From Persephonella sp. (GTDB taxonomy: Bacteria > Aquificota > Aquificia > Aquificales > Hydrogenothermaceae), in contig JALVKE010000006.1 of NCBI GenBank assembly GCA_027028005.1, positions 1 to 46,606 of the forward strand: DNA of 46,606 nucleotides. The letters are read 5' to 3'. The position numbers and the translations under genes were made by a program. The notes beneath the pieces are model-generated. The model was not told the origin of the DNA and searched no databases. It saw nothing but the letters and a program-made list of their open reading frames with translations. How positions within the stretch are numbered: position 1 is the stretch's first letter; each line of letters begins with the position of its first letter. Of this stretch, positions 12,011 through 46,606 are shown piece by piece.

Positions 12011-13082
12011 AAAAGTTTATATAATTGTTTTAAATTACAACGGTTGGAAAGATACTATAGAGTGTTTAGAGAGTATATTTAGGCAAAACTATAGAAACTA
12101 TCAAGTTATTGTCGTTGATAATAACTCAAAAGATAATTCTTACGAGTATATAAAAAGATGGGCAAATGGAGAATTTGAACTTTTCGTTCCTGATACAAAC
12201 CCTTTAAAATCTCTTGTATATCCCCCTATAAAAAAACCAATTCCAATAGAATGTCTAACAGGAAAAAAATTTGAAAAAACACAATGTTTGATAAAAAACA
12301 GCTTAAATATTGGAGAAATAGAACCTACAACATCTGAGCCTCTCATTCTTATCCAATCAACAGAAAATCTTGGTTATGCAGGCGGAAATAACTTAGGAAT
12401 TAAATATGCATTAAGTAAAAATGATTTTGAATATATATGGGTACTTAATAACGATACTGTTGTTAAGGAAGATACATTAGAAAATCTTATTAAATGTGCA
12501 GAAGAAAAAGGAGAAAAAGTCAATCCCTTAGGTTCTATTCTTTTATACTATGATAATCCTAACTTTATTCAGGCAGCTGGTGGTAAATTTAATTCTTTTT
12601 TTATAGTAGGAAAACATTTATTTAGTAATGAACAATATACAAATAAATTAATTAATAAGTTAAAAAAAATAAAAATAGACTATCCTGTTGGTGCTTCTCT
12701 ATTATTCCACAAAAAATTTCTAAAAGAAGTAGGTCTCCTAGATGAAGATTATTTTATTTATTACGAAGAAATAGATATTGTAAGTAGAGGTAAAGAAAAA
12801 GGTTATCAACCGGACATTTGTATTGAAAGTATTTTATATCATAAAGAATCTTCAACAATAGAAAAAGTAAATGAAAGCATATCTACTTTTTCTGATTTTT
12901 ATGCAGTAAGAAATAGAATTTTATTCACTAAAAAAAGAGCAAAAAATAAGCTTATATTTGCCTATTTAAGCATATTCTTCTCTCTACTTAATAGAATAAA
13001 AAGAAAAGAATTCAAAAAAGCAAAAAACATACTTAAAATTCTTCTTCAGGGGGAGAAATGCTCTTTCAAAGATTCTGGTTAA
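12003..13082 (+). CDS. Family 2 glycosyltransferase (rhamnosyltransferase-like)
   Basis: KVYIIVLNYNGWKDTIECLESI...VIVVDNNSKDNSYEYI; ENLGYAGGNNLGIKYAL; DEDYFIYYEEIDIVSRGK. Confidence 0.88.
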   Translation: MGKKVYIIVLNYNGWKDTIECLESIFRQNYRNYQVIVVDNNSKDNSYEYIKRWANGEFELFVPDTNPLKSLVYPPIKKPIPIECLTGKKFEKTQCLIKNSLNIGEIEPTTSEPLILIQSTENLGYAGGNNLGIKYALSKNDFEYIWVLNNDTVVKEDTLENLIKCAEEKGEKVNPLGSILLYYDNPNFIQAAGGKFNSFFIVGKHLFSNEQYTNKLINKLKKIKIDYPVGASLLFHKKFLKEVGLLDEDYFIYYEEIDIVSRGKEKGYQPDICIESILYHKESSTIEKVNESISTFSDFYAVRNRILFTKKRAKNKLIFAYLSIFFSLLNRIKRKEFKKAKNILKILLQGEKCSFKDSG

Positions 13083-14299
13083 TAAGTTATTTCCTTCTAT
13101 TTATACTACTATCTCTATCTGTTGTAAAAATACCTGTTGGATTTGAAGCAAGAGTTGGACAGATATTTCTTCTCTTTCTATTTAGCGTTTTGCTTTTATA
13201 TGATCTAAGATTTAAAACATTAAATATAAAAATCCTTATGTATTTTCTTACCTTCGGATTAATAGTAAGTTTAATAAGCAAGTTATCTACATATGAAAAA
13301 GTTGGAGAGGTGAAGTTTCTTATCAAATATCTGATAATCTTTCCTGGAGCATTTTATGTAGGAATGAAGATATTTCAACATTTAACTGTTAAAAAAATTC
13401 TTCTTATAATGGAAACAGCAGGTATTATATATGGTATATCAGCCTTCATCTTATACATACATCCTATTGAAGCTTTGATGCATATTAGAGAAGGGCTTGA
13501 AGGTTTTCAAGGAACATTTTATGAACCTTCTGGACTTGCTGAAGCTATTGGACTTATTTTTATAACATCTTTATCTTTGAGACTTCAGTTTAATCTATGG
13601 GAAAAACCTTACTATATATTTTCTGCTTATCTTTTTTTTCTTATAGTTGCTATCGCTACTAAAAATAAAACAATATGGATAGCTCTCTTCTCTGTTTTAA
13701 TTTTTGCAATAATTTATAAAGTCATTTTAGTTTTCCTTTTGGAAAAGAAACTTAAGTATCTATCTTTTAAGGATATCTATCATGGAGCTATAGAAAATAT
13801 AACAAAGATAAGTATCATCAAAATAACTTTTATTTTAATAACCTTTGGAATGTTCTTATATCTGTACAATGCATCTTTAGAAGAACCAATCTTTTCAGAG
13901 AAGATACTTGAAGAAAAGATAAAAACAGAAAGAGGTAAAGCCTTCTGGGCAGTTATAAAACTACTTGAAAAAAGTCACTGGTTAGGAGGATACGGTTATG
14001 GCTTTGTAGAGGCATATTTCTCTAAATCTAGACAGGAAATCCTCGGTCTTGGAGAAGGTGTATCTATGATTTTCAACTCTTACCTTGATGCATGGCTTGC
14101 AGGAAGCATTATCAATCTATTTTTCCAACTTTCACTGCTAGTTATATCCTTTAGTTTTAAATATTTTCCTACAATGTTTATTCCATTATTTCTTTTTATT
14201 GGAGCAAATTTAAATCCTCTATACGGAGATGAGTACTACTATCTTTTTTTGGGAATGTCTTTTGGATTTAAAAAGTTTTATGATCAGCTAAAGATCTGA
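13058..14299 (+). CDS. Polytopic membrane protein, O-antigen ligase/polymerase-like
   Basis: About 10+ hydrophobic segments, GTFYEPSGLAEAIGL motif, adjacent to glycosyltransferases. Confidence 0.65.
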   Translation: MLFQRFWLISYFLLFILLSLSVVKIPVGFEARVGQIFLLFLFSVLLLYDLRFKTLNIKILMYFLTFGLIVSLISKLSTYEKVGEVKFLIKYLIIFPGAFYVGMKIFQHLTVKKILLIMETAGIIYGISAFILYIHPIEALMHIREGLEGFQGTFYEPSGLAEAIGLIFITSLSLRLQFNLWEKPYYIFSAYLFFLIVAIATKNKTIWIALFSVLIFAIIYKVILVFLLEKKLKYLSFKDIYHGAIENITKISIIKITFILITFGMFLYLYNASLEEPIFSEKILEEKIKTERGKAFWAVIKLLEKSHWLGGYGYGFVEAYFSKSRQEILGLGEGVSMIFNSYLDAWLAGSIINLFFQLSLLVISFSFKYFPTMFIPLFLFIGANLNPLYGDEYYYLFLGMSFGFKKFYDQLKI

Positions 14300-42544: not shown

Positions 42545-43081
42545 ATGAGTTTAGCTGATAGATATTTGCCTTACTATACGGTAGAAGATAGAGAAAAGTG
42601 GAAAGGAGATTGGGAACTTGTTGAAGGGGTTCTCTTTGCTTTAGCTTCTCCTTCTATCGAGCATCAAAGAGTTATATCTCGTTTACTACAACAACTCCAA
42701 AATGGTTTTGAAAAATGTAAGGAGTGTGAAGCTTTACCAGACTTAGACTACTTTATATCTGAAGATACTGTTGTTAGACCAGATGTTATTGTTTTATGCA
42801 AAAAAGTAAAAGAAAAACTAACTGTACCTCCAGATATTATATATGAGGTTGTATCACCATCTTCAGTAAAAATGGATGAACACATAAAATTTGAGCTGTA
42901 TGAAAGAGAAGGAATTAAGTTTTATGTGCTTATTTATCCTTTTAAAGATAGAAAGCATATAAAAATTTTCCAGCTTTTAGATGGTAAATACAAAAAAATA
43001 TTTGAAACTATAGATGATACTTTTGAATCTATTCTTGAAAAGTGCAAATTTACACTTGATTTTTCAAAAATATGGGAATAA
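42545..43081 (+). CDS. Uma2 family (DUF820) putative restriction-endonuclease-fold protein
   Basis: WELVEGVLFALASPSIEHQRVISRLLQQL; VVRPDVIVLCKK; DIIYEVVSPSSVKMDEHIKFELYEREGIKFYVLIYP. Confidence 0.9.
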   Translation: MSLADRYLPYYTVEDREKWKGDWELVEGVLFALASPSIEHQRVISRLLQQLQNGFEKCKECEALPDLDYFISEDTVVRPDVIVLCKKVKEKLTVPPDIIYEVVSPSSVKMDEHIKFELYEREGIKFYVLIYPFKDRKHIKIFQLLDGKYKKIFETIDDTFESILEKCKFTLDFSKIWE

Positions 43082-44339: not shown

Positions 44340-45034
44340 GTTTTATCTGAACTATATGGGATAGAAAGACTACATTGTGTAGTATATGATAACAAAAAAA
44401 AAGAAAGGTTTTATCTGAACTATATGGGATAGAAAGAGCTCTTATCAAGTGTTCAGGTTCTTCTTGTGATGAGAGTTTTATCTGAACTATATGGGATAGA
44501 AAGTTTTGAGATGTTCCAAGATTTGCAGGTATATACTTGGTTTTATCTGAACTATATGGGATAGAAAGTCTAATTACATATTCTCCTGCTTGGGCTAAAA
44601 CAGGTATAGTTTTATCTGAACTATATGGGATAGAAAGTGTTTTCATTAGTGATGAGACAGATAGAAGGTTTATACTAGTTTTATCTGAACTATATGGGAT
44701 AGAAAGAAAGCAAAAAATGAACCTACTTTTGCTATTGATTTTGGTTTTATCTGAACTATATGGGATAGAAAGATTTTGATATTTCGTTAGAAGTTAAAAT
44801 ACCATCAGTTTTATCTGAACTATATGGGATAGAAAGAATTTTTTGAATTGTTTTAGCTTCTTTTGAACTTATCTGTTTTATCTGAACTATATGGGATAGA
44901 AAGTCTTTAGATATCACATAGTTAGGAGATCATAGTTATGTTTTATCTGAACTATATGGGATAGAAAGCGAAAAGAAAAACTCTTCGTTGATAAAGATGG
45001 ACACAGTTTTATCTGAACTATATGGGATAGAAAG
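44340..45034 (+). CRISPR. CRISPR array: 11 identical 29-bp repeats GTTTTATCTGAACTATATGGGATAGAAAG, 10 spacers of 35-40 bp
   Basis: Repeat starts at 44340, 44408, 44475, 44540, 44609, 44678, 44744, 44808, 44875, 44940, 45006; all copies identical by eye. Confidence 0.98.
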
Positions 45035-45294
45035 ATATATACAAGATTTTAAAAGGCACTTTTTACAATAAAAAGGTATTTTAATACGTATTTCTAGAAA
45101 ATCCATTCGAATTATTAAATATGTAATTCGTTTTTTATCTCTTAGAGAAAAGAAACTTTCACAGCTAAATCTGAACATATTACAGTACCTCATTTATTCT
45201 TTTTATATAATGACATATACTTTCTAACATTTTAACTATAGTATAGAGACTTACGATAATAGATAAAGTCATTTTTTTATTATAGGAGTATAAT

Positions 45295-46606
45295 ATGGAT
45301 TATGAAGTTATCTACCATTTCAACGAGAAATTTTCTTATTGTGAAAAATGCGATAAATATGAAAACTTAAAAATTCCTATAGCTGTATATGTGAAACCTA
45401 AAGAAAAAGAAAAAGTTAAAAAAGAACAAAAAAATATTAAAAGTAAAAAAGGTTTAACTACCTATTTAAAAAAACTATACAAAGGAATAAAAGGACGGGA
45501 AGATAAAAGGAAATATTGGTATACATGCATTCTTCACGATGACAAAGAAAATGAAATATGGATGACTGATTCTTATCAAGAATATATGAATGCATTAGAT
45601 TCTCTTTTTAAGAATAATTATAATATACTCCTGTATGAAGCAAAAATTAATTGGAATAAAATTTTGTTAAGTGAATTTGAAGAATGGTTTGCTACATATT
45701 CCTTAATCGTTTACATAAACAATATTCTTTATAATTTAGAAAAAAAATTAGCATTTTCTGAATTTTTGTTTAATTATTTAAATAATAAAGATAGAAAAAA
45801 GACATTAGAGAAATTCAAAAATTTTTTTGTTATTTTAAATTACTTCTTAAAAAATAAGAATTTAAGCGGTGATAAACTTCTTAACTTTTCTGAGATAAAT
45901 TTTCCTATTTTTCCTTTGAAAGATGGAAGTGTATGGGAAAGCAAACTTTTTTTATTTTATGATCCATATAAAGATGATGAATCACTTGAACCAAAATCTA
46001 TGATATTTAATTTTTATAAATGTAAATTTTATGGAGAAACAATAATTAGCTCTTATCATAAAATATGGAATAATTCAACCATCATTACTGATAGATGCAT
46101 ATTTCTTAATAATTTAAATATTTATTCTTATACTTATGATTGGGAAAATCCAGAATTTGAACAATATAAATTTAAGGATATTTTTTTAAAAAATAGCAAA
46201 TTTTACAGCCCAGTATATGTAGAAATAAATGTGAATGGTTGGTTAGGAAGTGTTGAAGATGTAGGTGTTCATCCTAATATTGAAAATTGCAAATTCTTTT
46301 ATTCATTTAGTATTGCATGGGCAGATCCTATTATTTCATATGATCTATATGAAATATTAGAAAATGAAATAGATGGTTTTTTCTTATGGACATTTAAGAG
46401 TGCTATTAAAGATTTTTATATAAAAAATACAATCTTCCATAAAGGTGCTTATTTTAATACCATCATTCACAAAAATATCTTTGATAATGTTACATTTAAT
46501 TCAAGCATTTACTTTACATATTTTAATATTAACTATGAAGAATTTACTAAATTGTTAAAGTCTATAAAAATAAAATCAAAAAAATTAGAAGCTCAAGATG
46601 TAAAAA
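45295..46606 (+). CDS. Uncharacterised large protein with pentapeptide/beta-helix-like C-terminal half; truncated by window end
   Basis: ATG with SD taggag; 437 codons open to the window end: MDYEVIYHFNEKFSYCEKCDKYENLKIPIAVYVKPKEKEKVKK...; not in the ORF track because no stop is reached. Confidence 0.85.
   Translation, partial: MDYEVIYHFNEKFSYCEKCDKYENLKIPIAVYVKPKEKEKVKKEQKNIKSKKGLTTYLKKLYKGIKGREDKRKYWYTCILHDDKENEIWMTDSYQEYMNALDSLFKNNYNILLYEAKINWNKILLSEFEEWFATYSLIVYINNILYNLEKKLAFSEFLFNYLNNKDRKKTLEKFKNFFVILNYFLKNKNLSGDKLLNFSEINFPIFPLKDGSVWESKLFLFYDPYKDDESLEPKSMIFNFYKCKFYGETIISSYHKIWNNSTIITDRCIFLNNLNIYSYTYDWENPEFEQYKFKDIFLKNSKFYSPVYVEINVNGWLGSVEDVGVHPNIENCKFFYSFSIAWADPIISYDLYEILENEIDGFFLWTFKSAIKDFYIKNTIFHKGAYFNTIIHKNIFDNVTFNSSIYFTYFNINYEEFTKLLKSIKIKSKKLEAQDVK

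Follow-up and report, generated by a model that had tools for sequence, protein, structure and literature searches.

Results

The open reading frame at the end of a Persephonella contig is a genuine gene fragment. Its family is unnamed and patchily distributed, and profile comparisons make it highly probable that this is a family of Aquificota and Campylobacterota proteins in which a Cys/His knuckle is combined with pentapeptide repeats and transmembrane (TM) segments. What appeared to be an orphan is thus a member of a widespread family. We estimate a probability of about 0.5 that the protein, as a member of this family, is also a membrane-anchored accessory of the cell's defence repertoire; a defence-related role taken by itself seems to us about as probable as its absence. 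Below, "the window" denotes the whole analysed stretch of 46,606 nucleotides.

The open frame at the contig end

The frame (45,295 to 46,605, plus strand) contains 437 codons without a stop and runs off the contig, the last base of which is 46,606, a true contig end and not only the edge of the window. The coding sequence (45,295 to 46,606, plus strand) therefore covers codons 1 to 437 of a family member, and its 3′ end is missing because the contig stops. At this composition, an open run of this length would be expected by chance with a probability of about 1e-20. A Shine-Dalgarno sequence, AGGAG (45,284 to 45,288, plus strand), was read directly about 6 nt before the ATG, and the start codon falls at the same residue as in one homologue. 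Both the open run to the edge and the frame's own Shine-Dalgarno sequence had been described in the first-pass annotation, and both hold. The same annotation called the frame very AT-rich, which is correct for the overall GC content (22.5% vs 31.8% for the window) but not for third codon positions, where GC3 is 0.167 against a mean of 0.201 and is lower in 5 of the 42 genes. Because this GC3 is unremarkable in the window, the AT-richness mostly reflects the amino-acid composition; a foreign origin of the window copy, considered from its AT-richness, gains no support from GC3.

The continuation of the gene was sought on other contigs, and no joinable contig was found. Contig C314 of the same genome carries a C-terminal family fragment at its very start (L066, G000:C314, 1 to 660, plus strand) but was rejected as the continuation, as it overlaps neither the window end nor C224. 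The latter contig holds a second family copy (L072, G000:C224, 3 to 1,242, minus strand), in which the frame is interrupted downstream of the N-terminal part, by either a real frameshift or an assembly error. In draft Aquificota assemblies, contig ends repeatedly fall within the family gene or near it, as if it were breaking the assemblies: C6, C224 and C314 of G000, C77, C72 and C74 of G121, C54 and C26 of G035, C83 of G036 and C131 of G108.

Detection and distribution of the family

With the window protein alone, no named family was found in Pfam, NCBIfam, PHROG or PADLOC, in agreement with the earlier impression that it resembled no cas or housekeeping family, and searches of the PDB, phages, plasmids, viral_contigs and genome_contigs returned nothing useful. 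No PADLOC-DB 2.0.0 model matched the frame or three relatives. A match to TssR_M scored 18.3 bits, below the cut-off of 25.7, and was taken as chance. Among 136 genomes of the phylum, the search gave one relative sharing TCI[FL]HxxKENEIWM.

Because the first-pass annotation had guessed at a pentapeptide protein, related genomes were searched with Pentapeptide_3 and then scanned for C-x-x-H, which revealed two relatives, 912 and 645 residues long, together with a paralogue in the same genome. An iterated profile found members in 10 of 136 Aquificota genomes and one relative in Sulfurimonas, and subsequently members in 28 of the 151 genomes of that relative's family; in its phylum they were found in 66 of 250 genomes, although repeat-only matches may account for some of them. 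The family is absent from both other genomes of the window organism's genus that were examined. On phage, plasmid or viral contigs no member was found, the plasmids giving only general pentapeptide matches. Our literature search found no description of the family or of its linkage to restriction-modification (R-M) systems, and no experimentally tested member was found.

As the window protein was itself part of the first profile, a second one was made from the other Aquificota members only; it found the frame with E = 3.9e-13 over residues 1 to 296 and picked up no shuffled control. When the C-terminal half alone was compared with a broader profile, E was 1.3e-3, and no hit was reported among 50 shuffled sequences (with E-values calculated for Z = 1000); hhalign of this half against the Campylobacterota members gave 8e-4. 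By sequence comparison, then, homology is firm for the N-terminal half, and for the repeat half it appears weak but collinear.

Regions of the window protein and architecture of its relatives

The N-terminus of the window protein has the family's CxxC...CI[FL]HxxK(E) knuckle, with C16, C19, C78 and H81 followed by KENEIWM. The first half, C16-E-K-C19 (45,340 to 45,351, plus strand; aligned with relatives), is the CxxC that had been noticed at the outset, but the conserved part had been missed: the second half, C78-I-L-H81 followed by KENEIWM (45,526 to 45,564, plus strand), is the best conserved stretch of the N-terminus, and its C78-x-x-H81 sits within CILHDDKENEIWM. The knuckle may bind a metal. 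Alignment places between its halves a Lys-rich insert of family-variable length (45,397 to 45,513, plus strand), and behind the second half lies a helical middle (residues 94 to 235; 45,574 to 45,999, plus strand), which aligns to the FWRRxRAYRFAVDYK region of the relatives and whose helices are taken from a low-confidence model. The Lys-rich linker and the helical middle had both been proposed from the sequence, and both are present.

Residues 236 to 423 (46,000 to 46,563, plus strand) would form a degenerate pentapeptide or beta-helix-like region, as suggested by the broader-profile and hhalign comparisons described above. The guess of such a fold from the recurring F/I pattern is right at the family level, but in this copy the pattern does not stand out by itself: the 5-residue periodicity of residues 200 to 437 was 12 against 8 in shuffles (P = 0.11, not significant alone), and Pfam gave no pentapeptide match in the frame. 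AlphaFold, which had been proposed as a check, returned a single-sequence model of the window protein with a pLDDT of 33.6, unusable for reading the fold. A beta-helix in residues 200 to 437 is suggested only through the homologues.

In the relatives, the order is a Cys/His knuckle, a pentapeptide beta-helix, a conserved linker (RETxRxIK...NxIEANxFYxLEM), one to four predicted C-terminal TM segments and a basic tail (YQFIVxxRxxTRR, e.g., YQFIVSVRQNTRR). Six Aquificota relatives whose N-terminus could be read carry the knuckle, with the consensus CxxC...CI[FL]HxxKENEIW, as do 10 of the 21 Campylobacterota members, a group that varies more in its N-terminal region. The repeats match PF13576 (3e-32 in the best case), and two relatives (P0003 and P0004) exceed the Pfam pentapeptide cut-off. 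Among solved structures, the family profile gives a match at 1e-4 to the pentapeptide protein 2xt2/2xt4. When a relative was modelled with AlphaFold from a three-sequence alignment, confidence was moderate in part of the beta-helix only, with regular strands at a pLDDT of 64–83 confined to residues 260 to 340, and a fold search with this model gave no match. The missing C-terminal end of the window copy presumably resembles that of the relatives, with linker, TM helices and tail.

Significant repeats are thus common to the relatives and to the pentapeptide-repeat proteins (PF13576 Pentapeptide_3, PF00805), whereas the window copy is too degenerate for a Pfam match and the family adds a knuckle in front of the repeats and a linker and TM tail behind them. 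By its description, HglK, a cyanobacterial pentapeptide membrane protein that acts in heterocyst envelope and septal functions, is like the family in having both a pentapeptide region and TM segments (PMC8145042). In HglK, however, the TM segments are N-terminal and the repeats C-terminal; this order is reversed in the family, which also has the knuckle and the conserved linker.

Genomic neighbourhoods of the relatives

About 8 of the 35 Campylobacterota loci are part of R-M systems or adjoin them; these systems are of types I, II, IIL and III, and most loci have other surroundings. Type I neighbours were seen at L078, L117, L123 and L161, the last being assigned from the same member-KAP order as in L123 and a ResIII frame downstream, on a contig that starts just before the member. 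The type II neighbours are at L120, in the order D12 methylase, member, AlwI endonuclease; MmeI-type neighbours are at L125 and L160, and a type III system is at L127. Overlaps of start and stop codons with R-M genes occur in five loci (L117, L120, L123, L125 and L160). Pfam confirmed neighbours of L117, L120, L123 (KAP), L124, L125 and L127, and among the neighbours PADLOC identified type I restriction subunits and specificity subunits, three of each; neighbour names beyond these confirmations were assigned by eye. Gene cluster 14, suspected from its length to be HsdR, is leucyl-tRNA synthetase by its sequence. The Abi_2 gene beside L124 is among those confirmed by Pfam, and inspection by eye suggested an FRG-like protein and an ATPase at L164 and RelBE-like pairs at L114, L115 and L119. 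R-M operons carry accessory genes such as those of KAP NTPases and Abi_2 proteins; these share operons or islands with the members at L123, L161 and L124 but have no sequence relation to the family.

At 1e-10, 244 PADLOC models matched among 138 neighbours and 39 among an equal number of control genes (138) from those genomes, counts that are not independent as the models are redundant and that include some defence genes among the controls. Of the 35 members, 5 have an N6_Mtase domain no more than 7 kb away, against 0.73 expected (P ~7e-4), with loci treated as independent and kinship ignored, although L125 and L160 share their context, as do L123 and L161.

Other members (L112, L126 and L130) reside among housekeeping genes. 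At the ispE/smpB site, likely an insertion hotspot, a member occurs alone in L126 (6,724 to 8,229) and together with MmeI in L160 (5,550 to 9,396), and so the R-M association is not obligatory. On the readable side of the window copy there is no R-M gene, and a CRISPR array is the only defence feature in the window. The first-pass suggestion of an accessory or defence gene has moderate independent backing in the relatives embedded in R-M operons, although most relatives are found in other contexts, and the neighbourhood analysis it had called for reveals enrichment of the family beside R-M systems but no recurrent linkage with CRISPR, a single further array having been encountered.

Discussion

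The CRISPR array in the window (44,340 to 45,034, plus strand; 11 identical 29-bp repeats) ends 260 bp upstream of the frame, and this position was one of the grounds on which a defence role had originally been proposed. One could imagine an ancillary Cas-type protein acting together with the array beside it, the frame lying just beyond the last repeat. Yet among about 35 loci of relatives only L116 has an array within ~5 kb, and inspection by eye revealed no cas gene in the window or on its contig. Cas1 of this genome is encoded on four other contigs, among them C92, where a one-mismatch copy of the array repeat lies near a Cas1 fragment (G000:C92; L154 position 1218). Given the single array near relatives and the location of Cas1, the adjacency is probably incidental, the array is probably not of the same system, and a CRISPR accessory is extremely improbable; the argument from position is not supported, and a neighbouring array can mislead as a clue to the role of a gene. 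Mimicry of B-DNA has been proposed for gyrase-binding pentapeptide proteins, and by analogy the beta-helix might imitate B-DNA, restrain a neighbouring restriction enzyme and protect the host. The PDB matches of the family profile are indeed to an McbG-like pentapeptide protein (2xt2/2xt4), and many members have an acidic helix region, with a net charge as low as −18 in L118; but the region is neutral or basic in L115, L116, L120, L124 and L127, of which L120 and L127 are R-M neighbours, and near neutral (−2) in the window copy. The argument from charge was dropped owing to this inconsistency, and as such a role needs no membrane anchor either, we regard a DNA-mimicking regulator as very unlikely.

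A serious rival, possible without being probable, is that the family consists of membrane pentapeptide proteins whose role, in the envelope, in transport or as a scaffold, is an unrelated one, and which travel with genomic islands and thereby often come to lie next to defence genes with which they do not cooperate. It is serious because most members (about three quarters of the loci) are not beside R-M genes and because members are AT-rich in their surroundings: all 25 measured members exceed their surroundings in AT content, with a mean difference of 11 points, and in many of them GC3 is the lowest of the locus, a pattern expected for mobile genes. The alternation at the ispE/smpB site, integrases recognised by eye near L117 and L129, and the envelope and septal functions of HglK (PMC8145042) also fit a passenger. 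Start/stop overlaps with R-M genes of different types in five loci, however, are more than sharing an island normally yields and speak against a passenger.

Our preferred reading, an accessory of the defence repertoire, builds on the directly supported homology of the frame, architecture of the relatives and enrichment beside R-M systems, and the patchy distribution of the family also speaks for it; counted against it are the many members away from R-M genes and the fact that the array is not a family trait. The Cys/His knuckle and the beta-helix may form a docking face, and this part of the protein would bind a partner, which could be a phage product or a complex of an R-M system or another defence system. 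The beta-helix would be placed in the cytoplasm, and the membrane part would anchor the protein or deliver a response, e.g., a membrane disturbance if restriction fails. This membrane-effector mechanism is offered tentatively and is, as it stands, rather unlikely. Equally doubtful is the broader idea that an undescribed membrane-anchored pentapeptide family is a shared accessory of several unrelated R-M types, with the window gene as a stand-alone member, and that it would act in Aquificota and Campylobacterota alike as a back-up effector or regulator. If true, the repeated insertion of one membrane protein into R-M operons of types I, II, IIL and III would point to a coupling of restriction to the membrane.

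Several further features were noted. The array at L116, in G253, is CRISPR-like, with 15 repeats (12,780 to 13,800), ~5 kb from the family member. In the window, an ORF resembling the Uma2 family by eye (42,545 to 43,081) lies between two succinyl-CoA synthetase-like genes. Fusions of an NTPase-like part to pentapeptide repeats, with many near-identical repeats, were seen at L031 (a frame of 1030 aa), at L032 (928 aa) and in G042; they resemble STAND-type defence proteins and constitute a different family from that of the window ORF.
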